From: Antrihabitans cavernicola
Lineage (GTDB): Bacteria; Actinomycetota; Actinomycetes; Mycobacteriales; Mycobacteriaceae
Reading direction: 5' to 3'
Assembly: GCF_008297975.1 (NCBI RefSeq)
Contig: NZ_VLNY01000026.1
Location: 1-42,290, forward strand
Length of the DNA: 42,290 nt
A program made the translations under genes and the position numbers. The number at the start of each line of letters is the position of its first letter. The first letter of the stretch is position 1. Of this stretch, positions 5,641 through 27,483 are shown piece by piece. The notes under the pieces are model-generated. The model did no database searches. It was not told the DNA's origin and was given only the letters and a program-made list of their open reading frames with translations.

Positions 5641-5917
5641 CGCTGGCCATCAGTGCGGCGAAGTACTCCTCGAAACGGACATAGCTCGATTTGGGAACGT
5701 CCGATACCGTGTGAGCTGCAGTTTCCGTTCGCTGATGAGTGAGATCTGACGAAATCGGATGGCTACCGGGAACGTACAGGTGCTGATACATATTTCGGCA
5801 CGTCACCCACCAGAGTTCAAGCATTGGTCGCGTTGGACAGCGGTGATCTGCGAACCGTCCGATGACATGGTCGAGAGCAGCCGTGGGGTGAGTCTTGTCA
5901 AGTTTGTCTGGGGCCAT
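5641..5917 (-). pseudogene. Unidentified coding remnant upstream of the PAS pseudogene
   Basis: From an ATG at 5917 the frame reads MAPDKLDKTHPTAALDHVIG, then CPTRPMLELWWVTCRNMYQH, then LYVPGSHPISSDLTHQR, and continues into the DNA of the PAS pseudogene in a different frame. The W/C/Y-rich core with a regular hydrophobic pattern suggests real coding sequence. I do not recognise the family, and the end is not a natural C-terminus. By position it could be another member of the duplicated PAS/ANTAR module. Confidence 0.3.
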
Positions 5918-6252
5918 CGAGATCAGTGCACGGCGATCTGGCCGCCGTTGCGTGGTTTGATTCTCCGCAGGACACACGCCCAGTACAGTGCTCGATCGTG
6001 GACGAACCCAACTTTCTGCGCACCACTCGGGCGGCTTAGGACGCGACAGCCACCGACTACGCCGAATGGATCTCGGCGGAGAGGTCGAGTCCAAGCCGCT
6101 GGATCGGGCAAGTCGGCGGACCAGGTGTAGCGGATCGGGACGGGCGGATCTGTAAACGGCGAAGAGAACGTCGAAGGTCACGTGTAGTACGAGGGTGACC
6201 CACTCGGCAGGAGAGAGGCGATCGCTGGCAAACCGGTGCGATTGGCTACCGG
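5918..6252. other. Gene-free, probably degraded DNA
   Basis: Several minus-strand frames are open here but none keeps a protein-like composition. A start-like segment (MTFDVLFAVYRSARPDPLHL at about 6120-6181) may be the 5' end of the decayed gene that continues at 5917. I see no RNA gene or clear promoter. Confidence 0.3.
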
Positions 6253-6732
6253 CTATGCATTCGGTATTCCGGTGGTGATGCAGAAGGGGTGGCCGAGGAA
6301 GGTGAGCCGGAATTTCCCGATCAGGATCTCGTCGCCGTCCGTCAGGGGTGCGGTGTCGATGGATTCCCCGTTGCGGTAGGTGCCGTTGAGGCTGCCGACA
6401 TCGGCGATGAGGAACTGGTGCCCGTCGCGGCGGAATTCGGCATGGCGGCGGCTGACGGTCACGTCGTCGAGGTAGATGTCGCTGTCGACATGCCTGCCGA
6501 CGCTGGTGACCGGCCGGTCGAGCAGGAACTTCGCGCCGCGGTTCGGTCCGCGGTTGACGACAACGAGCCCCGCACCGCGCGGGAGCGAACCGGTCGCGAT
6601 TGGTGACGCCTCTTCGGGGGCCGAGTCGGGATATTCGTCGGGGACGTCGGTGAGAAGCTGATCCGTGGCCTGTCTCGAGTCTTCGTGGTCGGGCAACGGC
6701 TCGTCTTTGTCGATCATATTCTTGTCGATCAA
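6253..6732 (-). CDS. FHA-domain protein, GarA-like
   Basis: A 159-residue protein with an acidic, disordered N-terminus (1-50) and a C-terminal forkhead-associated domain (about 55-145). The phosphothreonine-binding residues are all present: VGRHVDSDI, VSRRHAEF, SLNGTYRNG. The sequence RGPNRGAKFLLDRPVTSVGR closely follows mycobacterial GarA/OdhI. However, the ETTS phosphorylation motif that PknB/PknG use to switch GarA is not seen; the N-terminus has only ATDQLL. It may therefore bind phosphopeptides without the intramolecular off-switch. The start is TTG with GGAGG eight bases upstream, and the arrangement is shared by the paralogue at 33471-33914. It follows the PAS-ANTAR gene after ~155 bp. 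Confidence 0.9.
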   Translation of the reverse strand: MIDKNMIDKDEPLPDHEDSRQATDQLLTDVPDEYPDSAPEEASPIATGSLPRGAGLVVVNRGPNRGAKFLLDRPVTSVGRHVDSDIYLDDVTVSRRHAEFRRDGHQFLIADVGSLNGTYRNGESIDTAPLTDGDEILIGKFRLTFLGHPFCITTGIPNA

Positions 6733-6887
6733 GATGGTCTCCTCCGGCGCGATGCCGGGTCGGGTAAAGACTGACGCCCCAGGCGTGCGCGTTGCGTGCA
6801 GCGTGTAATGACCAGCCGATCTCGGGTGGTGAAGTTGCCTATCGGCACAACGGGGCAGACGGGGCCCGCCAGAGCGTGTGCCGCGTT

Positions 6888-7550
6888 CTAGGGTGGCTCC
6901 GGGTTCCTGAGCAGGACGAGGTCCATCGCCGACCGTGCGTCGGCCGCGATGTCGACCTCAGTCATGTCGTGAAGGATTCGTTGTGCGAGGTCGCGGACCT
7001 TGAGGTTCGTCTGCTGCGAGCGCCATGCGAGGACATCGAATGCCCGGTCGGCAGAGATGTTGTAGGTCAGCATCAACGCACCCTTGGCCTGCTCGATTGC
7101 GGCGCGGGACTCGGTGATCTCTGCGATCGCCTCGTCGATGGCTACCTGCAGGTCGGCCTGGACCCCGTCGGTGATGTCGACGTAGAACCCGGCGGTGCCG
7201 AGCAGTTCCCCGGCCGCGGAGAGCATCCGGTCCGCGACCACGACCACAAGGTGCGTGTGGCCGGCGGTGTCGATGATGCGGTGCCGGCTACTGAACGGTG
7301 CACCGTCGCGCACCTTGTCGAGTAGGGCAGGGACCGCTGGCCTGTCGTCGGGATGTTTGTGCGAGAGCAACAGTTTTGGGCTCGGGTGCGCGGCACCGGG
7401 CCGGGAGCCGTGTTTGCCTGCCACGGCGTCGGACCACTCCCACCGCTGGCCGTCGAGGTAGAACCGGAAAACACCGACCCGCTGCGGGATTCCGGCGCCG
7501 ATGATTCGGTCGAGCCCGGCTTCGTCTATGTTCACGTGCTCTGTCTTCAT
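6888..7550 (-). CDS. PAS-ANTAR regulator
   Basis: A 220-residue protein with an N-terminal PAS-type sensor (about 20-130: FRFYLDGQRWEWSDA, then LLSHKHPDDRPAVPALLDKV, ending AGFYVDITD) and a C-terminal ANTAR RNA-binding domain (about 145-205: ESRAAIEQAKGALMLTYNIS, then ADRAFDVLAWRSQQTNLKV). ANTAR domains bind paired hairpins in nascent mRNA and prevent termination; the PAS domain would supply the signal, unidentified here. It shares ATGA with the 107-residue gene upstream, so the two are coupled. I did not find an obvious dual-hexaloop ANTAR target in the flanking gaps. Confidence 0.92.
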   Translation of the reverse strand: MKTEHVNIDEAGLDRIIGAGIPQRVGVFRFYLDGQRWEWSDAVAGKHGSRPGAAHPSPKLLLSHKHPDDRPAVPALLDKVRDGAPFSSRHRIIDTAGHTHLVVVVADRMLSAAGELLGTAGFYVDITDGVQADLQVAIDEAIAEITESRAAIEQAKGALMLTYNISADRAFDVLAWRSQQTNLKVRDLAQRILHDMTEVDIAADARSAMDLVLLRNPEPP

Positions 7551-7870
7551 CTGCTCGGCCGACCGTATTCGGCGCGCACATGCCGCTCATCGACCGCGTC
7601 GTACCCGTCGTGCCGGGGGCCGGTGAACCGGCTGATCTGGTGCAGGGGTGCGGGCTGACGCAGCGGTTCACCACCGGAGAGCAGTTGTCGCTGACCGGTC
7701 AGGATGTCGTCGTAAAGCGTCTTGTAGGCCGCGTCGTCGCCCAGGACCCATGTCGTGTTACGACCGTTGGCGAGGAACGCGACGAGTTGCCGGTCCAGGG
7801 GCCAGTGGGCGTAATGGCCGCTCTGATAGGTGGAGCCGACGAACTCGGCTACAAGGTGCGCGGTACCCAT
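7547..7870 (-). CDS. Unknown protein of the PAS/ANTAR module
   Basis: A 107-residue protein of unrecognised family. The first ~65 residues contain a pattern (AEFVGSTYQ, HWPLDRQLVAFLANG, DDAAYKTLYDDILTGQRQ) that recurs in the 79-residue protein at 32964-33203, near the second FHA gene. It is therefore a conserved member of this module rather than a chance ORF. The C-terminal half is rich in R, H, G and P and probably disordered. It starts 4 bases after the PAS gene stop and shares ATGA with the PAS-ANTAR gene. No membrane segment or catalytic motif is apparent. Confidence 0.7.
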   Translation of the reverse strand: MGTAHLVAEFVGSTYQSGHYAHWPLDRQLVAFLANGRNTTWVLGDDAAYKTLYDDILTGQRQLLSGGEPLRQPAPLHQISRFTGPRHDGYDAVDERHVRAEYGRPSR

Positions 7871-7874
7871 GTGC

Positions 7875-8384
7875 TCACCCGTCCTCGCCCGGCCCGGCTG
7901 GTCGGCGACAGCCTTCCGACCAGCCGGGATGCAGTTCGAACGTCGTTCGCGCCCATAGTTGTTCGGTGACGTCGTGAACGGCGACCAATGCCACCGGGTC
8001 GTCGGCCCGTACCAGCGCCGAGCTGCTCACCAGAGCGTGGACCGTCCAGCCGTCGTGGTGGCGCAGATCGACGACCGCACTCGACGAGCGGCCTCGCAAG
8101 CCCGCGATGCCAGCATCCGCATGTGCGGGGTCGGCGAGAATCCGCCCGGCAGGGCGGTCGATCAACTCGACACACCGGTAGCCGAGCATGTCGGCGAACG
8201 CGGCGTTGACGTAGACGACGAGTCCGTCCTTCTGTACCGCGAGAATCGGCACCGGGAACCGATCGAGAATCAAGGTGGTCGGTAAACCTTCGAGGTAGCC
8301 GAGCGGGGTCTGCGGTGGTGCCGCCCGACGCTCCGCTGCGGCATCGACGCCCGCGTATCTGCTGCTGCCGGTTGTGCTGATCAT
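7875..8384 (-). CDS. Single PAS-domain sensor protein
   Basis: A 169-residue protein starting at the ATG at 8384, behind AAGGGAAGAG; an upstream in-frame start would add eight unlikely residues. The PAS fold covers about residues 45-155: FPVPILAVQKDGLVVYVNAA, FADMLGYRCVELI, HHDGWTVHALVSSSALVRAD and the closing VALVAVHDVTEQLW. There is no output domain, so it probably signals through a partner, plausibly the PAS-ANTAR protein two genes downstream. A broken copy lies at 5257-5640. The ~140-bp gap to the Pls operon on its right may hold its own promoter. Confidence 0.88.
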   Translation of the reverse strand: MISTTGSSRYAGVDAAAERRAAPPQTPLGYLEGLPTTLILDRFPVPILAVQKDGLVVYVNAAFADMLGYRCVELIDRPAGRILADPAHADAGIAGLRGRSSSAVVDLRHHDGWTVHALVSSSALVRADDPVALVAVHDVTEQLWARTTFELHPGWSEGCRRPAGPGEDG

Positions 8385-8522
8385 TTCTCTTCCCTTCCAA
8401 CGGCACAAGACAGGACCGTTTCTCTGACGTGACGGTCGGCGTCGTGCACGGTCCGACTTCGGTGATGCGGGTGGGGCGAGGCTGTGGGCGTCGCGGGGGG
8501 CGTGGTGACGATGACGGGGTCG

Positions 8523-9344
8523 TCATGACGGTGTGGCTGCGGGGCGGTGAATCGTTGCTGCGATGAGGTCGTGGCCGAGGTCGTAGCGGATGCCGTCCGG
8601 GTTGGTGAGGCCGATACCGGTGTACCAGGTCAGGTCGGCCTCCGGGTGTGGTCCGACTACCCCGACGCGACCCGCCCCGTAGGTGGCGACGAGTGCGGCG
8701 GGAAGGTCGTTGTCGTAGCGGGCCAGCACCGTCGTCGCGGTGTGGGTGGCGTCCGGGAAGGTCGGGCCATCCTGGAAGAACATGTGCCGCTGCTGGTGTC
8801 GCCACCGGATGGGGATGACGGTGTCATCGGTGTTGTGCACGGTGGCCTCGTCGGAGTCGATGTAGCGTCCGATGCCGCCGGGCACGAGTCCGAAGCCGGG
8901 CGACGAGCCGGCCAGATAGCCGCCAAGGCAGAAGCCGAGATAGTGTCCACCGCCGTGCACCCAGGTGCGTAGGTCGTGCGCGTGGGCACGCATTTTGCGC
9001 CAGGCCGGGGAGAGGGTTCCGCCGCCGGGTTGGGCGTAGACAACTGCCTTCGCGAGGCTCGCCGCCGTCAGCGGGGTGTCTTCGTCCGGCCCGCAGAACA
9101 CGGCCCGAAACGGGGTCGGGTGCGTCTGCAGCAGGTGGGCGACGGCCTCCGAACATCCAGCACAGGATGCCGGGCCGCGGTAGACCAGCGCCACAGGACG
9201 GTTGTCGAGCCGGTCGAGGTAATGCTCCGTGGTGATGCCGATGACAGCACCGGCCCCGACGATGCCAGCACCGCCGATCAGGAACCGGCGCCGCGTCAGC
9301 TTTCGAGGCTGCCGGGCGTGCCGTTGCGCGGGCTGGTGTTTCAT
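8523..9344 (-). CDS. Tat-signal BPL_N-type (class I amidotransferase-fold) protein
   Basis: A 273-residue protein with a twin-arginine signal (LTRRRFLIGGAGIVGAGAV, residues 17-35), so likely exported folded. The mature part is the BPL_N fold, the N-terminal-type domain of biotin protein ligase in some eukaryotes: VALVYRGPASC, YAQPGGGTLSPAW, then the nucleophile-type elbow HYLGFCLGGYLAG, and GRVGVVGPHPEADLTWY near the end. Bacterial BPL_N proteins are uncharacterised. The Cys in GFCLG and the PHPE motif suggest a glutaminase- or peptidase-like active site. It is last in the Pls operon, sharing ATGA with the PAS-GGDEF gene, and is a paralogue of the cytoplasmic form at 11514-12233. Confidence 0.85.
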   Translation of the reverse strand: MKHQPAQRHARQPRKLTRRRFLIGGAGIVGAGAVIGITTEHYLDRLDNRPVALVYRGPASCAGCSEAVAHLLQTHPTPFRAVFCGPDEDTPLTAASLAKAVVYAQPGGGTLSPAWRKMRAHAHDLRTWVHGGGHYLGFCLGGYLAGSSPGFGLVPGGIGRYIDSDEATVHNTDDTVIPIRWRHQQRHMFFQDGPTFPDATHTATTVLARYDNDLPAALVATYGAGRVGVVGPHPEADLTWYTGIGLTNPDGIRYDLGHDLIAATIHRPAATPS

Positions 9345-10207
9345 TGCAGACTCGTGGAGGGGTGGTCGAGGGTGTCACGGATCATCGCCGCGAGCAGGGT
9401 GGCAGGATCGTCGTTGTCGGTGATTGTGGAGACCACGACGGACGTCGCGCATTGCAGCGGCCGGCGGGTGAGGTGGATGGGTCGGGCGGTTTCTCGTCGC
9501 AGCCGCTCTGCCACGAGGACGGCCTTCGCCAACGTGGTGTTCTCCGACACCACCGCGAATGTGCCCGCCGCGACGCACGCCGTCGTGCCGGTGTCGCCGG
9601 AGGCGACCCTATGGAAGGTTCCGGTCACTCGTCGTGCCATTTCGATGGCGACGGCCTCGGCGACGAGGCGACCGAAGCGGGTCTCGATCGTGGTGAAGTC
9701 CTGCACGGCGACGACCGTCACCGCCGTTTGGGTGCCGATGAGGTTGCCCTCGCCCGTTGTCCGTCGGCAGCGGTCGAGGAAGGTGCGGCGATCGGGCAGA
9801 CCGGTCGCAGGATGGTTCGGTGATGATGTCGGCGCCGCCTCGCGCACGGGGCCTGTGCTGGCGTCGTCGAGGCGCAAGATGCAACCGACCGCGACACCCG
9901 CCTCGGTCGTGATCGACGCGGTCACCGTGACCGGGTGTTCGCTACCGTCCGGATGCACGATCCGCACCCGCCGTTCGGCGCCCGCCGCCGCGATGTCGGT
10001 GTTCGCACAGACGCCATGCAATATCTGTCGATCACCGGGGTGCACACACGCCGGCAGCTCGGTATCGGCGAGGTCGCCGACGGTGCGTCCGAGCAGCTGC
10101 GCGAACGCCGAGTTGGCCTCGACGATGACCTCGCCGCGGGTGCACACGGCCAGTGCGGTGGGGGCGTCGCGGAAGATGGCACGAAACTCCGGAACTGCTG
10201 CCGTCAT
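9341..10207 (-). CDS. PAS protein with degenerate GGDEF domain
   Basis: A 288-residue protein. Residues ~5-120 form a PAS domain (FRAIFRDAPTALAVCTRGEV, FAQLLGRTVGDLADTELPAC, then a VGCILRLDD closing strand). The C-terminal ~150 residues follow the GGDEF fold (ATGLPDRRTFLDR at its start, then TAVTVVAVQDFTTIETRFGR). The signature site is replaced: where RxGGDEFAVV is expected, the sequence reads CVAAGTFAVVS. It therefore cannot be a diguanylate cyclase and may be a ligand-binding or protein-interaction relic. It shares ATGA with genes on both sides, tying it to the Pls operon. Confidence 0.85.
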   Translation of the reverse strand: MTAAVPEFRAIFRDAPTALAVCTRGEVIVEANSAFAQLLGRTVGDLADTELPACVHPGDRQILHGVCANTDIAAAGAERRVRIVHPDGSEHPVTVTASITTEAGVAVGCILRLDDASTGPVREAAPTSSPNHPATGLPDRRTFLDRCRRTTGEGNLIGTQTAVTVVAVQDFTTIETRFGRLVAEAVAIEMARRVTGTFHRVASGDTGTTACVAAGTFAVVSENTTLAKAVLVAERLRRETARPIHLTRRPLQCATSVVVSTITDNDDPATLLAAMIRDTLDHPSTSLQ

Positions 10208-11514
10208 CGGCGAATACCGGGTTGTTCGGGCCCGGTGTCTCGTGCGGGCCCGGTGTCTCGTGCGGGCACGGTGTCTCGTTGGCCCGATGCCCGGGAGTGT
10301 GCCTGATGGTTGACGTGTCGCCCGACGCGTTTGGTGATCGCGGCGACAAGGCCTTCGAGGGGGCCGCGGCCGGCGGTGGCCCGCCAAGCCAGCGCGAACG
10401 CGAAGATGCAGACCAGTTGCCGGATGTAGCCCGACGTCGGACCGTACATGTCGAAGTCGGAGTTGATGAACATGATGTGCGCCGTGTACACGGTCAACGA
10501 CATGCTCCCGACGGCGGCGAGCGGTGCCAGCACCCGGCCGACTGCTCGGTCGATGTGGTGCCAGGTGAGGTGCCCGAGCAGCAGGATCACGCCGAGGACG
10601 GCGAGGGAGCTGCCGATGGTGGCCATCACATCCAGGGGTGTACCGGTATGTGGACCGTTGACCGCCAGCCACCACCACGAGGACGTGGGCACGACGCCGT
10701 CGCCGCCGAAGAGCAACAGATCCTGCGCGGTGTCGGTATCGACGCTCGCGGTAAGGTGCGCCATCCCGCCGAGTGGGTGCAGCAACAGCCAGCTCAGCGT
10801 GGACGATCCGATCGCGAGGATCAGCCCGAGTCCGGCCAGCCCGCCGGCCACCCGCACCGAGGTCAGGGGCAGGCGCCCCACCACGATCCCGGCACAGACG
10901 TAGCTCATCCACACCAGCGCCGGATATTCGCCGGTGACGGTGAGATCGATCAACAGCCCGAGCGGATTGTGCAGCAGCACACCGAACGATGCCTGGGTGC
11001 CCAACGGATCCGGCAGGTGCGGACGCACCCACTGACTCGCCACCGGCAGCGCGACGGCCAACACGGCGGTCAGCGGAACGAGTACCCGGGTCCGTAGACG
11101 GGTCAACGGGATCGCCAGCACAAACATGATCGCGTAATACGGGAGGATCACGGTGCCGTAGTCGGCGTCGGTGTACCCGAGTGCCAGCCCGATGATACCG
11201 ATCGATGCCGCGCGGGCGATTAGGGCGGCGACCTTCCCGCGGGCGTGCGGTCCGTCGACGAGCTGTTTTCGGCCCACGATGAACGAGATGCTGACCCCGG
11301 CCAGCACCGCGAACATCGCCGCGGCCCGACCCGCGAAGAGAGTGAAGCTCAGCGTCGGCTGACCGCTGTCGTCGAATTCGTCGAGCGAGTGGATCGCGAT
11401 CATCCCGACGACGGCAAGGCCGCGGGTGATGTCAATACCGCTCAGCCGCGCCGGCTTCGCGGTAGCGGGCGTGAGCACCGTCCCGGTCACCTTGGACGTG
11501 GTGGTGGCTCCCAT
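10204..11514 (-). CDS. Polytopic membrane protein, HGSNAT/DUF418-like acyltransferase
   Basis: A 436-residue protein with about ten hydrophobic segments. The N-terminus (RLSGIDITRGLAVVGMIAIH, residues ~23-42) is the signature of the heparan-alpha-glucosaminide N-acetyltransferase catalytic-type/DUF1624 group. The C-terminal part (GSMSLTVYTAHIMFINSDFD) is like DUF418. Such proteins move acyl groups across or at the membrane; here the acceptor is unknown. The last ~35 residues form a hydrophilic tail with RDTGPA repeats encoded by an 18-bp tandem repeat. The gene begins at TGATG with the preceding BPL_N gene and ends in ATGA with the PAS-GGDEF gene. Confidence 0.82.
   Translation of the reverse strand: MGATTTSKVTGTVLTPATAKPARLSGIDITRGLAVVGMIAIHSLDEFDDSGQPTLSFTLFAGRAAAMFAVLAGVSISFIVGRKQLVDGPHARGKVAALIARAASIGIIGLALGYTDADYGTVILPYYAIMFVLAIPLTRLRTRVLVPLTAVLAVALPVASQWVRPHLPDPLGTQASFGVLLHNPLGLLIDLTVTGEYPALVWMSYVCAGIVVGRLPLTSVRVAGGLAGLGLILAIGSSTLSWLLLHPLGGMAHLTASVDTDTAQDLLLFGGDGVVPTSSWWWLAVNGPHTGTPLDVMATIGSSLAVLGVILLLGHLTWHHIDRAVGRVLAPLAAVGSMSLTVYTAHIMFINSDFDMYGPTSGYIRQLVCIFAFALAWRATAGRGPLEGLVAAITKRVGRHVNHQAHSRASGQRDTVPARDTGPARDTGPEQPGIRR
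10228..10281. repeat. 18-bp tandem repeat, three units
   Basis: GGGCCCGGTGTCTCGTGC occurs at 10228-10245 and 10246-10263, with a third unit (10264-10281) differing at a few positions. It lies inside the 3' end of the acyltransferase-like gene and encodes a repeated R-D-T-G-P-A motif in the cytoplasmic-type tail. Such a repeat can vary in copy number without breaking the frame. Confidence 0.85.
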
Positions 11515-12233
11515 CAGCGCATCACCGCGTCGATCAGGTCGAATCCGACGCGCATCGCGGGGTCGGTGTGATCACGCAGCCCGGAGTCGGCGAACCAGTC
11601 GGAGGTCGCCTCCGGGTGCGGCCCGACCACGGCGACCCGGCCGGAACCGAATCGGTGTGCCAACGCGGCGATCTCGCCGTTGCGGTAGCGAGCGAGCACA
11701 TCCACGTCCTCATTCTCGCCCGGTTCGTCGAGGACGACGGTGGCACCGTCCTGGAAGTACAGTGTCTCAGGGGTGCCACGCCAGCTCACGTCGACGATCG
11801 CCGGCCGGGTGGAGTCGACGGTGGCGCCCGGGGTGCGGATGTACTGATCGGTGTCGCCTGGCAGCAACCCGAACCCTGGGGTGCGCCCGGCCAGGTAGGC
11901 GCCGAGGCAGAAGCCGAGGTAGCGACCACCGGAGTGCACGTACTCGCGCAGGTCCTCCCGATGGGAGGCCATCGCCCGCCATGCCCGACGCAGCGTCGAG
12001 CCACCGGGCTGTGCGTAGAGTGTCGCGGTACGCAGCGTGTCGGCGGTCAAGTCACGCTCTTCGGAGGGGCCGACGAACCCGACGTCGAAGTTCCGGTGGC
12101 TCGCCAGCAGTAACTCCGCAACCGATTCCGGGCAACCAGGCAGGGCGGCCGGGCCGCGGTAGACCAACGCCAGACCGCCGGACTCGGTCCGTACCCTCGG
12201 CTCGGTCCGTGCCATCACCTCGGTCCCCGCCAT
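11514..12233 (-). CDS. Cytoplasmic BPL_N-type (class I amidotransferase-fold) protein
   Basis: A 239-residue protein without signal peptide. BPL_N landmarks in order: LALVYRGPAALPGCPESVAE (~20-40), LYAQPGGSTLRRAW, RYLGFCLGAYLAGRTPGFGL with the putative nucleophile Cys, LYFQDGATVV, and RVAVVGPHPEATSDWFADSG. The start is the ATG at 12231-12233, because the NRPS stop (TGA) overlaps it as TGATG. A long open frame continues upstream but lies antisense-in-phase to nothing and shadows the NRPS gene. It is the paralogue of the exported form at the operon's 3' end. Two copies in different compartments suggest action on the same polymer or precursor inside and outside. Confidence 0.85.
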   Translation of the reverse strand: MAGTEVMARTEPRVRTESGGLALVYRGPAALPGCPESVAELLLASHRNFDVGFVGPSEERDLTADTLRTATLYAQPGGSTLRRAWRAMASHREDLREYVHSGGRYLGFCLGAYLAGRTPGFGLLPGDTDQYIRTPGATVDSTRPAIVDVSWRGTPETLYFQDGATVVLDEPGENEDVDVLARYRNGEIAALAHRFGSGRVAVVGPHPEATSDWFADSGLRDHTDPAMRVGFDLIDAVMR

Positions 12234-15200
12234 CACCGCACCGCCTGCGCGGGGATGCCGCACCAGTGGGTGTCGGGGGGTAGCTGTTCGCCCTTCATCA
12301 ACAGCGACAACGAATCCAGTGTGGCGTCGTCGCCGACGGAGGCGTCGTAGAGCACGATCGACCGGGATCCGACGGTGGCACCGTTGTCGATGGTGACCTG
12401 CGACATCTTCATCACCCGGTCTTCGAAGAGGTGCGTCTGCAGCGACACCTCGGTGCCGATCGCCACGTCGTCGCCGATGCGGACGAGGTCGAACTCGGTC
12501 AGATAGGTGGTGCCGATCCAGGTGCGTTTGCCGATGTCGGCGCCGAATCCACGCAGCAGCGGCGCCAGGTACGGGGTCCCCAACAGCTGGTTGAGCAGCA
12601 CTGGAACCGCGGCCGCCTCGTAGAGTCCGGTGGCAAACTCGGAGCGACGCACGAACGTAGCCCACAGCGGCTCGACCCGCGGCCGGTAGACGCCGGCGAC
12701 ATTGCGTTTGACCGCCGACACGTAGAGCACCACGCCGAGGGCGGTGCCGATCGCGAGCAGCGGTGCGACCACGATCGTGGTCACCAGGTCGGTGGTGCGC
12801 GCGAACTGCGAGAGACCGAGCAGATAGAAATACATGCTCACCCCGATCACGGTGGCGGGCAGGGTGATTCGGAAATATTCGATGATCAGCCGGTGCCCGA
12901 TCACCCGACGGCCGGGGTGGAACGTCTGCGCTTCGGCGTAGTCGCCGCTGTCCTGCCGCGCCGGGAGGAACATCGCCGGCGAGCCGAGCCACGAGGTGTC
13001 CGCCGGGACACCACCGGCCGGGGGCACGGTCAACACGCCGACCAGCGACCCGTCCCCGGTTCGGGTGCCGGCGGGCACGAACGCGGCGTTGCCGACGAAG
13101 GATCGGACCCCGACCTCGGTGGCCTCGAACGCCATCCGTCCGTTGGCGAAGGTGGATCCGCCGACGGACGCCATGTCCGCCACGAAGCTCTCGTCGCCGA
13201 TGTGCAGCAGCGACGGATCGATGTGCGCGGCGGTCGACACTTCGGCACCACGACCGACCCTCGCCCCCAACAGCCGTAGCCACGGTGCGGTATAGAGGGT
13301 GGCGTATAGCGAATTGGTGTAGGTCAGGCTCATCTCGAACAACTTGTCGGCCATCCACTTTCGGATACCGAGCCTGGAGTGCGCGTCGAAGACACCCGAC
13401 GGCAACGCCGGTAGAACGAGATGCTTGCCCGCCGCGACCACACCGCAGACGGTGAGGACGTACACCGTTCCGGACGGCAGCGTTGCGAGCAGGGCTGCGA
13501 TCATCCCGTACTCGAGCAACACCGCCCACACCAGCACCAGCGCGGGCACGATGGTCGCGATCGCCACCACCTCCAACACCGCCACCGCTGCGGCCGAGGA
13601 CACCAACAGTGCGGGTGACCATTGCCGCGCCGCTCCCGCAGCCATCATCTGCTCGACCGAGGCGGTGAGCGTGGCCACCGGACGCGACGGTGACCCGGCC
13701 CACCGGGTGCCGCCCGGAATCCGCCGACCGGCCGAGACCACCGATTGCTCGGCCAGCATCGCACCGGCCCCCACACTCGCACCCGGTTCGAGCACACAGC
13801 TCGACCCAACGAAGGCATGGTCGTCGATGATCACCGGCGCGACGACGACCCAGCCGTGCTCGACCCGCCACGCCCGCAGGTCCGCGTGATAGCCGACCGA
13901 CACACCGTCACCGATCCGGATCAACGCCGGCAGCGAGATCGCGCTGGTGCCGATGTCGGTGTCGCGGCCGATGCGCGCGCCGAGCGCCCGCAGGAACGGG
14001 GCCTGCATCGGCGAGCCGCTCAACACCGGTAACGGCGAGAGCATCAGGAGATGGTCGATCATCCACAATCGCAGATACGTCGAACCCCACAACGGGTACC
14101 GGCCCGCACCGATACCCCGCGAGAGCGGTCGCACCAGCAGGATCGGCAGCAGCCACCGCACCCCGAGATATGTGGGAATCGTGGCGATCAGCAGTTCGGC
14201 CAGCACCCGAACCGATGGTTGCCCGTGGTGGCGGCTGTAGACGATCGACACCGGCAGCGTCACCACCAGCAGCACCAGCAGCAGAAACACCGCCTGCACG
14301 GTTCCGGCCCGGGCAACCCGACCGTCGTTGTGCCGCAACGGTTCCGGACGATCCGAGACCGGCACCTCGGCATAGGCGGAGGACCCGTCCGCTCCGGTGT
14401 ACGAGTGCGCCAGCGAGCGGATCGTGGGGTGTTCGTAGAGATCACGGATACCGGCGGATGGCTGCAGTTCGGATTCGCGAAGCGCCGAGATCAGGCGCGC
14501 CGCCGCCAGCGAATGACCGCCGAGATCGGTGAAGAAGTCCGCCTCGACCGACACCCGCTCCGGTTCGAGTCCGAGCACCCGTGACCACACCGTCCGGAGT
14601 TCGCGTTCGAGCTTTCCCTCGACCGCCACGATCGGGGCGGTCGAGGCAGGCAGGCGACGACCGGTCGGTGCCGGCAGTTGTTTGCGGTCGACCTTGCCGC
14701 TGGGCATGGTGGGTAATGCGTCGAGGACGTCGAGGAAGGCCGGGACCATATAGCCCGGTAGTCGGGCACGCAGCTCGTCCTGGACGCGGGCGATCACCGC
14801 CTCGTCGTCGACGTGGCGGGCCGTTCCGGCACGCAGTTCGAGATAACTGGCCAGTTCCTCGCCGCCGACCGCACCGACGCGCGCGACCACGCAGACGGCC
14901 ACGTCGTCGTCTTCGAGGATGACGCTTTCGATCTCGCCCAGGTCGATCCGGTGTCCGCGGATCTTGACCTCGCTGTCGGCGCGGCCCAAATATTCGATCT
15001 CGCCGTCGGCGGTGATCCTGCCGAGGTCGCCGGTGCGATAGAGCTTGCCGCCATTGGGTGCGAGGAGGTGCTCGATAAAGCGGTCGGCGGTCAGATCCGG
15101 GCGCCCGACGTAGCCGCGGGCCACCCCAGGACCGCCGATGCAGATCTCACCCACCTCACCGTCGGGAACTGGTGTGCGCCGCTCGTCGAGCAACACCACC

Positions 15201-16237
15201 GAATATGTCGGCAGCGGTTCGCCGATGGTGACCGGTCGGCCCGGCAACAGTTCGCACCAGGTTGCGGTGACCGTCGCCTCGGTGGGACCGTATGTGTTGA
15301 GGATGCGGCGCCCCGGCCGACTCCAGCGATCGACCAGTTCCCGAGGACATGCCTCACCGCCGACCAGGATGCTGCGTAGCCCTGACAGGTCGCGCGGAAT
15401 TGTCGCCAAAAGTGTAGGTACGCAATAGAGCACGGTGATCGCAGCGCCATCGAGGAAGTTCGCCAGGTCGGCGCCGAGGCGCCCGTGATCCGTGGGACCC
15501 GCGACCAGGGTGGCGCCGCGCGCCCAGGTCGGCCAGATCTCCTCGATCGAGAAGTCGAACGAGATGGTCATCCCCTGATACACCCGATCGGTCGGGCGCA
15601 CGTCGTAGATTTCCGGTACGACTTCGAGGAAGTTGCAGATGCTCGACTGCGACACTTCGACACCCTTCGGCCTCCCCGTCGAGCCGGATGTGTAGATCAC
15701 GTAACAGGCTGGGTCGGTCGCCGCCGCACCGCCGGTCAGTATCGGCCGTTCATCGGGATAGTCGTCGAACGCTTCGGTGTCGATCTCGAGCCAGGCTCGG
15801 CCCAACGTCGCCAGCGGGCCGCGGAACGACACCGATGTCACCACCAGATCGACATCCGAGTCCGAGGTGATGTAGTCGATACGTTCGATCGGACTCTCCG
15901 GATCGATCGGTACGAACGCAGCGCCCGCTTTCAGGACGCCGAGGATCGCAACATAGGTATCGACGGACCTGCGCAACAGCACAGCGACCCGAGTGCCGAC
16001 ACCGATCCCGCGGTCGATCAGGTGATGAGCCAACCGATTGGCCCGCTCGTCGAGCTCGCGGTAGGTCAACCGCACCGACCCACACTCGAGCGCCACCGAC
16101 CCGGGCGACCGATCACACGACCCCTCGAACACATGATTGAGCAGACGGGACGCACCATCGATGGCACGAGCCCCGGTGCCGTTATCGACACTTCCACCCC
16201 GGTCAATCCCCCATACGACTTCTGACGAATCCCCCAT
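12233..16237 (-). CDS. Pls/PosA-type single-module NRPS (amino-acid polymer synthase-like)
   Basis: A ~1334-residue protein, close to the 1319 of epsilon-poly-L-lysine synthase. The adenylation domain (~30-540) has YTSGSTGRPKG, FDFSIEEIW, NTYGPTEATV, YRTGDLGR and the C-terminal PSGKVDRKQL. The carrier domain has LGGHSLAAARL with phosphopantetheine Ser576. Then follow hydrophobic helices (LLLVLLVVTLPVSIVY and others) separating three left-handed-beta-helix domains, each opening with an (A/G)-P-x-L-R-x-L/F-G-A motif. There is no condensation or thioesterase domain. By analogy with Pls, it would activate one amino acid and polymerise it or transfer it at the membrane; the substrate cannot be called. 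I chose ATG 16237; TTG 16291 is an alternative. It is the first operon gene. Confidence 0.92.
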   Translation of the reverse strand: MGDSSEVVWGIDRGGSVDNGTGARAIDGASRLLNHVFEGSCDRSPGSVALECGSVRLTYRELDERANRLAHHLIDRGIGVGTRVAVLLRRSVDTYVAILGVLKAGAAFVPIDPESPIERIDYITSDSDVDLVVTSVSFRGPLATLGRAWLEIDTEAFDDYPDERPILTGGAAATDPACYVIYTSGSTGRPKGVEVSQSSICNFLEVVPEIYDVRPTDRVYQGMTISFDFSIEEIWPTWARGATLVAGPTDHGRLGADLANFLDGAAITVLYCVPTLLATIPRDLSGLRSILVGGEACPRELVDRWSRPGRRILNTYGPTEATVTATWCELLPGRPVTIGEPLPTYSVVLLDERRTPVPDGEVGEICIGGPGVARGYVGRPDLTADRFIEHLLAPNGGKLYRTGDLGRITADGEIEYLGRADSEVKIRGHRIDLGEIESVILEDDDVAVCVVARVGAVGGEELASYLELRAGTARHVDDEAVIARVQDELRARLPGYMVPAFLDVLDALPTMPSGKVDRKQLPAPTGRRLPASTAPIVAVEGKLERELRTVWSRVLGLEPERVSVEADFFTDLGGHSLAAARLISALRESELQPSAGIRDLYEHPTIRSLAHSYTGADGSSAYAEVPVSDRPEPLRHNDGRVARAGTVQAVFLLLVLLVVTLPVSIVYSRHHGQPSVRVLAELLIATIPTYLGVRWLLPILLVRPLSRGIGAGRYPLWGSTYLRLWMIDHLLMLSPLPVLSGSPMQAPFLRALGARIGRDTDIGTSAISLPALIRIGDGVSVGYHADLRAWRVEHGWVVVAPVIIDDHAFVGSSCVLEPGASVGAGAMLAEQSVVSAGRRIPGGTRWAGSPSRPVATLTASVEQMMAAGAARQWSPALLVSSAAAVAVLEVVAIATIVPALVLVWAVLLEYGMIAALLATLPSGTVYVLTVCGVVAAGKHLVLPALPSGVFDAHSRLGIRKWMADKLFEMSLTYTNSLYATLYTAPWLRLLGARVGRGAEVSTAAHIDPSLLHIGDESFVADMASVGGSTFANGRMAFEATEVGVRSFVGNAAFVPAGTRTGDGSLVGVLTVPPAGGVPADTSWLGSPAMFLPARQDSGDYAEAQTFHPGRRVIGHRLIIEYFRITLPATVIGVSMYFYLLGLSQFARTTDLVTTIVVAPLLAIGTALGVVLYVSAVKRNVAGVYRPRVEPLWATFVRRSEFATGLYEAAAVPVLLNQLLGTPYLAPLLRGFGADIGKRTWIGTTYLTEFDLVRIGDDVAIGTEVSLQTHLFEDRVMKMSQVTIDNGATVGSRSIVLYDASVGDDATLDSLSLLMKGEQLPPDTHWCGIPAQAVR

Positions 16238-16972
16238 TGCAAGCCCCCATATCCTCGATCCTTTGCTCAAAGCACTCGATGTGCAGTTCAACGACGCGAG
16301 CCCGTCTGGGCATTCGTCCAGTTAACGGCTGAGGCTCGCCAACAACGTGCAGCCGCATCATGTTGTCCACGAAACGGTGAAAAGCGTTGCCGTGGAGACG
16401 CATGGCTCCTGCGCAAGCAACATGCGCAAGACCTGGCGAGCGACCCCCCCGATCCGCGATCGGTCATCCGCGCAGAATCCCCCTTCGCCTCCCAAACGAA
16501 ATCAAATCGTTACCGTCGTAATTCGCACGTTATGAAGGTGCCCCCTATCCCGTCAACCCCGAGTGCGTAGCAAAACTAGTCAGTGCATTGCCCGCTACAG
16601 CGAATTAACCGGACGTTCGCCGGGAATCGGCGAGCTAAACAAACCTCAGGTTCGCAATCCGGCGCGCGTGTGCACTAGCCAATACGGTCGCACCAGACCA
16701 AACCGCACAGTACGCATTTCGAAACAACTTGATGTCCGGCCGAATGGACGTCGGCAGCGCCAACGTCAGTAGACAGCAAAATTCGCTGAGGAAATATCCA
16801 GCAAACCAGAACATTGCGCGAAAATCGGCGCAGTTCTGGACCCGACAGTCGGATACAGAGGCACCCGCACACGAGCAATTTACGGTCGATGGCCCTCGAA
16901 GCACGCTTTCGCTCGTTGGCTGTGCGGTACCTGGTTCGATCGGCTGCGCGTGCACATCCGCGCACCATCACC
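16238..16972. other. Upstream region of the Pls operon, no gene recognised
   Basis: About 735 bp with no credible coding frame, comparatively AT-rich at 16490-16830. The region must contain the promoter of the minus-strand Pls operon. I can see AT-rich stretches on the minus strand near 16500-16540 but no box I would call with confidence. Confidence 0.4.
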
Positions 16973-26607: not shown

Positions 26608-27483
26608 ATGGCGAAATTGCAGCCCTTCTTTCACGATGTCCAAGCCCACTACGACCTGTCCGACGATTTCTTCGCACTGTTTCTCGACCCCACCCGCACC
26701 TATAGCTGTGCGTATTTCGAGCGCGACGACATGAGTTTGGAGCAGGCACAACGTGCCAAGGTCGACTTGGCGTTGGGCAAATGCGATCTCCAACCCGGCA
26801 TGACGTTGCTGGACGTCGGGTGTGGATGGGGTTCGACCTTGCTGCGCGCCGCGGACGCGTACGACGTCAACGTCATCGGATTGACGTTGAGCCGCAACCA
26901 GTTCGACCATGTGACGGATCTGATCGCGGCACGGCCCGACAACGGCCGCACCGCGCGGGTGCTCCTGCACGGGTGGGAGGAGTTCGACGAACCGGTCGAT
27001 CGGATCGTCAGTATCGGCGCGTTCGAGCACTTCCGGCGCGAACGCTACGACGCGTTCTTCGACAAATGCCGCGCGGTGCTGCCCGGTGACGGGAAGATGC
27101 TGCTGCACACCATCGTGCAGTACAATCGGCACGATATCCGGGCCAGAGGTCTCCCGATCGATCGGAAGATTCTGGAATTCGGACGGTTCATGCAACACGA
27201 AATCTTTCCCGGCGGACAGCTTCCCGAGCCGGAATGGGTATTCGCCGGTGCGGAGGCGGCGGGCTTTCGTGTGGATCGGGTGCACCCGTTGCAGCAACAC
27301 TATGCGCGCACACTCGACTGTTGGGCTGTGGCGTTGGAAAGTCGACGAGCCGAAGCGGTTCGGCTGACATCAGTCGAGGTGTACAACACTTACATCAAGT
27401 ACCTCACCGGGTGTGCAGAACTCTTCCGTAACGGATATATCGACATCATGCAGTTCACGCTCGCGCTGGAGTCCACCCGATGA
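26608..27483 (+). CDS. Cyclopropane-fatty-acid/mycolic acid methyltransferase
   Basis: A 291-residue SAM-dependent enzyme of the mycolic acid cyclopropane synthase family (CmaA/PcaA/UmaA-like). Landmarks: FFHDVQAHYDLSDDFFALFL (N-terminal helix), TYSCAYFERDDMSLEQAQ, SAM-binding LLDVGCGWGST, GLTLSRNQFDHV, and IVSIGAFEHF. The C-terminal YNTYIKYLTGCAELFRNGYI is the family ending. It would transfer a methylene or methyl to an unsaturated long acyl chain. The ATG at 26608 has AAGGGGA upstream; an earlier in-frame start lacks this. It overlaps the HadAB fusion gene by ATGA, so the two act in one pathway, probably modification and elongation of a long-chain or meromycolic acyl chain. Confidence 0.92.
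   Translation: MAKLQPFFHDVQAHYDLSDDFFALFLDPTRTYSCAYFERDDMSLEQAQRAKVDLALGKCDLQPGMTLLDVGCGWGSTLLRAADAYDVNVIGLTLSRNQFDHVTDLIAARPDNGRTARVLLHGWEEFDEPVDRIVSIGAFEHFRRERYDAFFDKCRAVLPGDGKMLLHTIVQYNRHDIRARGLPIDRKILEFGRFMQHEIFPGGQLPEPEWVFAGAEAAGFRVDRVHPLQQHYARTLDCWAVALESRRAEAVRLTSVEVYNTYIKYLTGCAELFRNGYIDIMQFTLALESTR

Follow-up and report, generated by a model that had tools for sequence, protein, structure and literature searches.

A Pls-family synthetase operon of Antrihabitans cavernicola with BPL_N proteins as candidate polymer hydrolases

Results

A five-gene operon built around a Pls-family synthetase

In this study, we analysed a 42,290-nt stretch of Antrihabitans cavernicola DNA (contig NZ_VLNY01000026.1; hereafter the window), in which five minus-strand genes, running from 16237 down to 8523, encode a polymer synthetase of the Pls/PosA family, a BPL_N protein, a membrane protein, a protein with PAS and GGDEF domains (PAS-GGDEF) and a second BPL_N protein. 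An initial annotation had described a five-gene operon joined by short overlaps, and all five genes and the four junctions (TGATG, TGATG, ATGA and ATGA, as read from the sequence) were seen. The features are as follows (aa, amino acids; Tat, twin-arginine).

12233..16237, minus strand: Pls/PosA-family single-module synthetase, 1334 aa, from ATG at 16237; upstream starts are possible
14693..16129, minus strand: adenylation domain, pocket D-F-E-Y-L-G-T-V-T (Pfam and pocket reading)
14405..14602, minus strand: carrier (thiolation) domain, serine in GGHSL (PP-binding, 1e-14)
12248..14278, minus strand: C-terminal region for polymerisation, with three soluble domains set among predicted membrane helices (TIGR02353, aa 654-1330)
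12235-12231, minus strand: synthetase/BPL_N junction, TGATG (TGA 12235-12233, ATG 12233-12231)
11514..12233, minus strand: BPL_N protein without export signal (PF09825, 4e-14); 240 aa when counted from GTG at 12236
11516-11512, minus strand: BPL_N/membrane protein junction, TGATG
10204..11514, minus strand: HGSNAT-like multi-pass membrane protein, 436 aa (HGSNAT_cat PF07786, 2e-12)
10207-10204, minus strand: membrane protein/PAS-GGDEF junction, ATGA
9341..10207, minus strand: PAS and degenerate GGDEF protein (both matches about 1e-7; AAGTF replaces GGDEF)
9344-9341, minus strand: PAS-GGDEF/Tat-BPL_N junction, ATGA
8523..9344, minus strand: BPL_N protein with Tat signal, 273 aa (PF09825, 1e-12)

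The genome of the window (5.66 Mb) carries the five-gene set twice, the second time on contig C17 (locus L039), with proteins 85, 78, 82, 67 and 77% identical to those of the first; a third, ordinary lysine-type Pls is also encoded. Because this genome holds a second set and a synthetase gene lies at 65 of 70 BPL_N loci elsewhere (see below), the arrangement is not due to chance.

The synthetase scored 570.3 bits against TIGR02353 (cut-off 423.1) over aa 654-1330, corresponding to positions 16-695 of the 695 in the profile, and contains AMP-binding (PF00501, 9e-80) and PP-binding (PF00550, 1e-14) domains. It thus belongs to the Pls/PosA family, with a score above the curated cut-off over the terminal domain and both adenylation and thiolation domains present. 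Pfam also revealed a Hexapep beta-helix match at aa 802-835 (C1) and, below its cut-off, an LbH match at aa 1235-1321 (C3), while six membrane helices are consistent with the hydropathy segments. No thioesterase domain was matched in the Pfam scan. Three left-handed beta-helices have been modelled for the homologue PosA (PMC10522769; published work is cited here from the sections of each paper that were available). The proposal of a Pls-type architecture of adenylation, carrier, membrane and beta-helix domains was therefore borne out by the AMP-binding, PP-binding and full TIGR02353 matches and the helix-consistent hydropathy, and an amino-acid homopolymer, as the annotation had suggested, is the likely outcome of such an architecture. 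By analogy with its family, the synthetase would make an isopeptide homopolymer.

The synthetase and BPL_N form the conserved core

Scanning one genome per species for BPL_N yielded 70 loci in other genomes, all of them actinobacterial except one on a 3.9-kb Ktedonobacteraceae contig. A synthetase was present in 65; of the other five, four lie on contigs shorter than 10 kb, and the fifth, L102, spans 20.7 kb. Since the loci were chosen by BPL_N, 65/70 is not an unbiased rate for the synthetase. The HGSNAT-like membrane protein was found at 33 loci (weak and upstream in L084), at least two BPL_N genes at 24, a DDAH-like gene at 18 and an M1 peptidase at 17. The conserved core is thus the synthetase plus BPL_N, with the membrane protein in about half of the related loci and a second BPL_N in about a third. 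PAS-GGDEF occurred only in the two copies of the window genome among 74 stretches scanned and in none of the 72 other loci, in a search with a one-sequence profile at 80 bits, by which distant forms could be missed. The idea that the five genes recur in this order in relatives consequently held in part: the order is partly conserved, but a conserved five-gene unit is rejected, given the absence of PAS-GGDEF from the other 72 loci, this gene being local to the window genome.

Among 41 related genomes, a synthetase at least 60% identical was listed in three (G000, G019 and G028), and BPL_N relatives (E up to 1e-5) were found in the same three and in no others. A phylum-wide sample of 296 genomes adds little because both genes were found only in the window's own genome. 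In a Streptomyces sample, 10 of 246 genomes carried BPL_N; in four of these (G505, G521, G567 and G570) a TIGR02353 gene is adjacent to it, although two of the four are the records L105 and L070, so that this sample is not independent of the 70-locus set.

The adenylation pocket points to a short diamino acid

Pocket residues are numbered by the GrsA scheme. The window synthetase reads D-F-E-Y-L-G-T-V-T, and lysine-type genes read D-A-E-S-I-G-T-V-V or near variants. A complete pocket reading was obtained for 64 of 74 loci (five of the other ten have no synthetase, four only its end and one a masked sequence), and 63 of the 64 carry DFEYxGTVT, where x marks the fifth letter, unreliable in this reading and taken from a separate one; the exception, L112, has C for Y. 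Work on PosA reported that Glu at position 3 binds the side-chain amine and that position 2 tracks chain length, with Ala for lysine, Met for ornithine and Phe for 2,3-diaminopropionate (Dap) or 2,4-diaminobutyrate (Dab) (PMC10522769). The window synthetase has the Phe at position 2 and the Glu at position 3 of a poly-diaminopropionate-type pocket and, by the position-2 rule, its monomer should be a short diamino acid. The initial annotation had pointed to epsilon-poly-lysine synthase, which is not supported as a substrate model, as position 2 is Phe, not Ala; the comparison of adenylation residues that it called for thus gave a pocket of diamino-acid type that is not of lysine type. Epsilon-poly-lysine as the product is rejected on the basis of this pocket and of the neighbouring gene, which encodes BPL_N, no M1 match being found in the window.

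Streptomyces noursei A-2-1 has two TIGR02353 matches, namely a lysine-type Pls, whose adenylation domain is highly similar to the solved S. albulus Pls (7wew), and a DFEY gene adjoining BPL_N. S. albulus PD-1 is a proven poly-diaminopropionate maker, in which the synthetase of this polymer has been demonstrated (PMC4668381). Because S. noursei pairs a lysine-type Pls with a DFEY gene and S. albulus PD-1 makes poly-diaminopropionate, the DFEY synthetase appears, by analogy, to be of the poly-diaminopropionate type. In the synthetase tree (32 rows of 46 loci, with the second copy L039 and L123 not included and one long-branch row, L138), a 100/100 branch separates the DFE-type rows from the rest, and the named synthetases nearest to that of the window are from Rhodococcus.

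Two synthetases beside a diaminobutyrate transaminase gene (L121 and L123) have the pocket DFECLSAVT, and L121 falls outside the BPL_N-linked tree rows. The DFECLSAVT synthetases (G042:C70:17058-20483 and G043:C1:8475360-8478803) adjoin the transaminase gene directly, as expected for poly-L-diaminobutyrate makers. The window pocket differs from DFECLSAVT. Of the possible Dab-supplying neighbours (transaminase, aspartate kinase and racemase), the search covered only the transaminase, which was found neither near any of the 73 loci nor within the window; in these two respects the locus does not match a poly-Dab type. Among other family members, L122 of a Kutzneria genome showed no adenylation motif by the patterns used and has SbnA/SbnB-like genes within 10 kb, and in many genomes of the Streptomyces sample TIGR02353 proteins lie in frames of about 840-1000 aa (L173-L177).

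BPL_N takes the pldII position behind DFEY synthetases

In S. albulus, pldII is translationally coupled to pls, and self-protection requires its product PldII, which is located outside the membrane (PMC9223678); the gene context of the other three synthetases differs from that of pls (PMC8117764), and a published figure already shows the contexts of known synthetases (PMC8117764, Fig. 1C). The lysine-type Pls gene of S. noursei is overlapped at its end by a gene for an M1 peptidase with an arginine-pair signal. Downstream of lysine-type pls, M1 was found in 30 of 33 distinct loci and neither M1 nor BPL_N in the remaining three, BPL_N being found in 0/33. The 33 derive from 35 rows with two repeats (L116/L158 and L118/L157), and a split locus, L131/L135, also has M1 but was not counted; only 1.5 kb downstream was covered for most of them, and synthetase type was assigned from the T..VT or T..VV column plus the pocket readings. 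In the DFEY clade, BPL_N takes the pldII slot.

The 65 loci with synthetase and BPL_N comprise 24 with a second BPL_N, 16 with an M1 that goes with this synthetase, none with both and 25 with neither. The M1 count is 16 rather than 17 because L103 also contains a lysine-type pls, and its M1 is downstream of that gene. In total, 40 of the 65 loci thus encode a second candidate cutter, which in most cases has an export signal. L103 (Streptomyces pinistramenti, 5904-16449) places a DFEY synthetase, BPL_N, a lysine-type synthetase and an M1 peptidase on one strand.

The BPL_N proteins carry a candidate hydrolase triad

Both BPL_N proteins of the window exceed the PF09825 gathering cut-off (52.8 and 48.0 bits against 24.2). 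The coupled one has no hydrophobic segment and no export signal, and the product of the last gene has a twin-arginine signal (RRRFLIGGAG) followed by a hydrophobic segment at aa 20-39. This makes plausible the earlier idea that the pair acts inside and outside the cell. A Tat-like motif precedes the second BPL_N in 18 of 24 loci by a crude pattern, and in two more (L050 and L053) by eye. Cys110, His207 and Glu209 (P0002 numbering), which the Tat-signal protein of the window shares, are invariant in 35/35 aligned BPL_N sequences and lie in the motifs GFCLG (or close variants) and PHPE; they are candidates for the Cys-His-Glu triad of class I glutamine amidotransferase-like hydrolases and represent a hydrolase signature, with a catalytic role suggested by the motifs. 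The best solved relative of the BPL_N profile, although weak, is the glutamine amidotransferase PDB 9xfs (E=0.0076), aligned over the cysteine elbow, and weak GATase_3 (CobB/CobQ amidotransferase) matches were obtained for 6 of 35 sequences (best 0.001). Searching the Tat BPL_N against solved structures with phmmer returned spurious matches only. In Rhodococcus-group loci, an extra BPL_N gene lies upstream of the synthetase (L045 4780-5427, L050 2233-2883, L098 2129-2776 and L110 4782-5426), giving up to three per locus.

Accessory genes and surroundings

The membrane protein scored 47.4 bits against HGSNAT_cat PF07786 (cut-off 22) and matched DUF418 weakly, below the cut-off of that family. 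HGSNAT_cat was matched by 20/20 aligned membrane-protein sequences (E up to 0.01) and Acyl_transf_3 by four; H42, H289 and H346 are invariant among them. A profile search with the HGSNAT-like proteins gave a chance flagellin match only. HGSNAT moves acetyl groups across the membrane onto an amine. It is therefore a reasonable guess, by analogy, that the HGSNAT-like protein acylates amino groups of the polymer.

The degenerate GGDEF described by the initial annotation was confirmed by eye, the signature reading AAGTF in the window and ATGTF in the second copy, neither of which is that of a diguanylate cyclase. As the protein lacks the signature and was not seen outside the two copies in this genome, it is likely to be sensory or regulatory, and cyclase activity is unlikely. 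A DDAH-like guanidino-hydrolase gene (PF19420, 1.5e-11 for L048) lies beside BPL_N, before or after it, in 18/65 loci, all 18 of which also carry the HGSNAT-like gene (e.g., L048 9087-9890, L073 9132-9935, L089 10696-11481 and L040 10545-11330).

Directly downstream of the operon are genes for a PAS protein (window 7875-8408, minus strand) and an ANTAR protein with a weak PAS match (6888-7550, minus strand). DNA overlapping this PAS gene also adjoins the second copy of the cassette (L039 15106-15756), in opposite relative orientation and with 77% identity over window 7683-8333, and window 26608-27465 shares 71% DNA identity with L039 4218-3364. The presence of the latter stretch near both copies suggests an old, rearranged segmental duplication.

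Discussion

Taking these results together, we propose, with a probability of roughly 0.55, that the operon makes poly-diaminopropionate or, less likely, poly-diaminobutyrate, that BPL_N fills the self-protection role of PldII and that the HGSNAT-like protein may acylate the polymer. The synthetase would activate the short diamino acid, load it onto its own carrier domain and polymerise it via the membrane-anchored beta-helix domains, as known for the family, and the product would be a cationic isopeptide homopolymer, with Dap a likelier unit than Dab. The BPL_N proteins may be amidohydrolases of the class I glutamine-amidotransferase type, with a Cys-His-Glu triad, and may cleave amide or isopeptide bonds of the polymer, an activity that we infer from gene position. 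The translationally coupled, signal-less BPL_N would clear polymer staying inside, the Tat-exported one would trim polymer outside, and the pair would replace PldII, the metallopeptidase whose gene is coupled to that of the epsilon-poly-lysine synthetase. Free amino groups of the polymer would probably receive acyl groups that the HGSNAT-like protein moves through the membrane, and PAS-GGDEF would be a local regulator, with no cyclase activity expected.

Among the closest described systems is the beta-poly-L-diaminopropionate synthetase of S. albulus (EXU85975.1), which has the same single-module adenylation-thiolation and membrane C1-C3 architecture with Phe at position 2 (PMC4668381; PMC8117764). 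It is reported as a 4,338-bp open reading frame, compared with 1334 aa in the window, and no role for a neighbour is given in the available part of the published text. The DFEY gene of S. noursei, its likely counterpart, has BPL_N beside it as in the window; unlike the window, the S. noursei locus has no HGSNAT-like gene and no second BPL_N. The epsilon-poly-L-lysine system of S. albulus, Pls plus PldII, shares the synthetase family and a predicted or proven polymer cutter coupled directly downstream (PMC9223678; PMC8117764), but has Ala rather than Phe in the pocket, and its coupled gene encodes a metallopeptidase (of family M1 for the S. noursei counterpart) where the window has BPL_N. The gamma-poly-diaminobutyrate synthetases of S. 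celluloflavus and S. hindustanus (PddA) belong to the same family and Phe pocket class but have neighbours that supply Dab, namely dat, aspartate kinase and racemase (PMC8117764; PMC8225329). The transaminase-linked genes of Dab type seen here, with DFECLSAVT, have no BPL_N within the 1.5 kb covered, unlike the window. PosA, the delta-poly-ornithine synthetase of Acinetobacter baumannii, has the same pocket Asp and Glu anchors, but Met at position 2 and a single-gene operon (PMC10522769). Compared with class I glutamine amidotransferases and other BPL_N (PF09825) proteins, the window proteins share the nucleophile elbow GFCLG (or a close variant) and the His-Pro-Glu motif, but they are short and stand-alone, with no biotin ligase domain matched, one has a Tat signal, and they are tied to a polymer synthetase. 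The statement of the initial annotation that no such system has been described needs qualifying: the literature searched, from which subscription papers are mostly missing, yielded no paper that ascribes a function to BPL_N at loci of this kind, but the synthetase appears to be of the described poly-diaminopropionate type, and gene contexts of such synthetases are published (PMC8117764).

Several observations weigh against the proposal of a BPL_N-protected polymer operon. To our knowledge, no activity has been assigned to a bacterial BPL_N protein. Sixteen loci have BPL_N and M1 together, so that BPL_N does not simply replace M1, and the 25/65 loci with neither a second BPL_N nor M1 mean that a second cutter is not universal; the mutual exclusion of second BPL_N and M1 (Fisher p 2e-4 with 16 M1 loci, 9e-5 with 17) ignores shared descent. 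In six of the ten Streptomyces carriers, BPL_N is not adjacent to a TIGR02353 gene; one of these six genomes, G555, encodes a DFEY synthetase at another place (L179), with no BPL_N in the 14 kb analysed there. Perfect pairing of BPL_N with the synthetase is thereby rejected, as five of the 70 loci also show no synthetase; orphan BPL_N genes make the pairing less convincing, although they are compatible with a role in immunity. Orthology of the window synthetase to EXU85975.1 is putative: it is the DFEY gene of S. noursei, taken as the counterpart of EXU85975.1, that falls among the same tree rows. As to monomer supply, a search limited to the SbnA/SbnB-type L-Dap route gave no SbnB match in the window genome and SbnA only below the cut-off; dedicated Dap supply was therefore not seen there. 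In S. noursei, SbnA and SbnB matches were likewise both below the cut-off only. Around the loci, diaminobutyrate transaminase, SbnA and SbnB were not found in 73 loci or in the window, by a search with a positive control for the transaminase only, which it found beside both Dab-type controls. The single diaminobutyrate transaminase over the cut-off in the window genome lies within an ectABC-like cluster (EctA and EctC recognised by eye).

Orphan genes, with BPL_N not beside a TIGR02353 gene, include L181, L182 (Tat-like by eye) and L183 (lipoprotein-like by eye). The genome of L181 (G356) has BPL_N and no TIGR02353 match at E up to 1e-60, and G516 has a partial match. These three genes are possible resistance genes.

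Of the two candidate monomers, we favour Dap over Dab. It is possible, though doubtful, that the monomer is Dab drawn from the ectoine pathway and the product poly-Dab, which would alter the monomer only and is compatible with the rest of our proposal. The window genome can probably make Dab in its ectABC-like cluster and yielded no match to SbnB, and Dab would also suit a pocket with Phe at position 2 (PMC10522769). Against this, the transaminase-linked synthetases carry the different pocket DFECLSAVT, with L121 outside the BPL_N-linked rows, the transaminase is near none of the 73 loci, and this transaminase family also scores above the cut-off in relatives that lack the cassette.

Other roles for BPL_N were considered. 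The coupled protein might be a release or editing enzyme, its cysteine hydrolysing the thioester between polymer and carrier and so setting chain length in place of the thioesterase absent from the family. Its coupling directly behind a synthetase with no matched thioesterase domain and the synthetase at 65/70 loci speak for this, but we consider it unlikely, given that BPL_N is absent downstream of all 33 lysine-type Pls loci, that the second window BPL_N is exported to where no carrier exists and that BPL_N occurs in genomes such as G356 and G516, with no or only a partial TIGR02353 match. A role of BPL_N as a glutaminase or amidotransferase, delivering ammonia for Dap or amidating the polymer, is improbable: the exported paralogue would have no amidotransferase partner outside and the cassette has no synthase partner gene. 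In favour of this role, glutamine amidotransferases are the closest relatives beyond BPL_N itself, among solved structures and in Pfam; ammonia released by an ornithine cyclodeaminase homologue is used to make Dap in S. albulus (PMC4668381); and the SbnA/SbnB search found no dedicated Dap supply in the window genome. We give as little credence to a product that decorates the cell envelope rather than being secreted and is remodelled by the BPL_N pair and the HGSNAT-like protein. The membrane acyltransferase-like gene in 33/65 loci (counting the weak, upstream L084) would suit it, but characterised family members make free cationic oligomers or polymers (PMC10522769; PMC4668381; PMC8117764), and the recurrent neighbours whose representatives were scanned, a minority of the neighbour clusters, included no conspicuous gene for a sugar or lipid transferase.

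What would be novel in a poly-diaminopropionate-type operon protected by BPL_N is a different hydrolase class in the immunity position of a cationic homopolymer operon, doubled across two compartments in the lineage of the window and joined by a membrane acyltransferase-like gene. A bolder version, which we hold only tentatively, is that BPL_N represents a new class of Cys-His-Glu polymer isopeptidases giving makers of poly-diaminopropionate-type polycations immunity in two compartments, the cytosol and the cell exterior, that the mature product in this lineage is an undescribed N-acylated polymer made via the HGSNAT-like protein and that orphan BPL_N genes in non-producers are resistance genes. 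If our proposal is true, it would give bacterial stand-alone BPL_N proteins their first function and explain how producers of poly-diaminopropionate-type polymers survive their own polycation. It would also offer a genomic rule by which the pocket together with the coupled hydrolase predicts the polymer of an uncharacterised Pls-family gene, and would make the loci of Rhodococcus, Microbispora, Micromonosporaceae and others candidate sources of polymers, which may be acylated.

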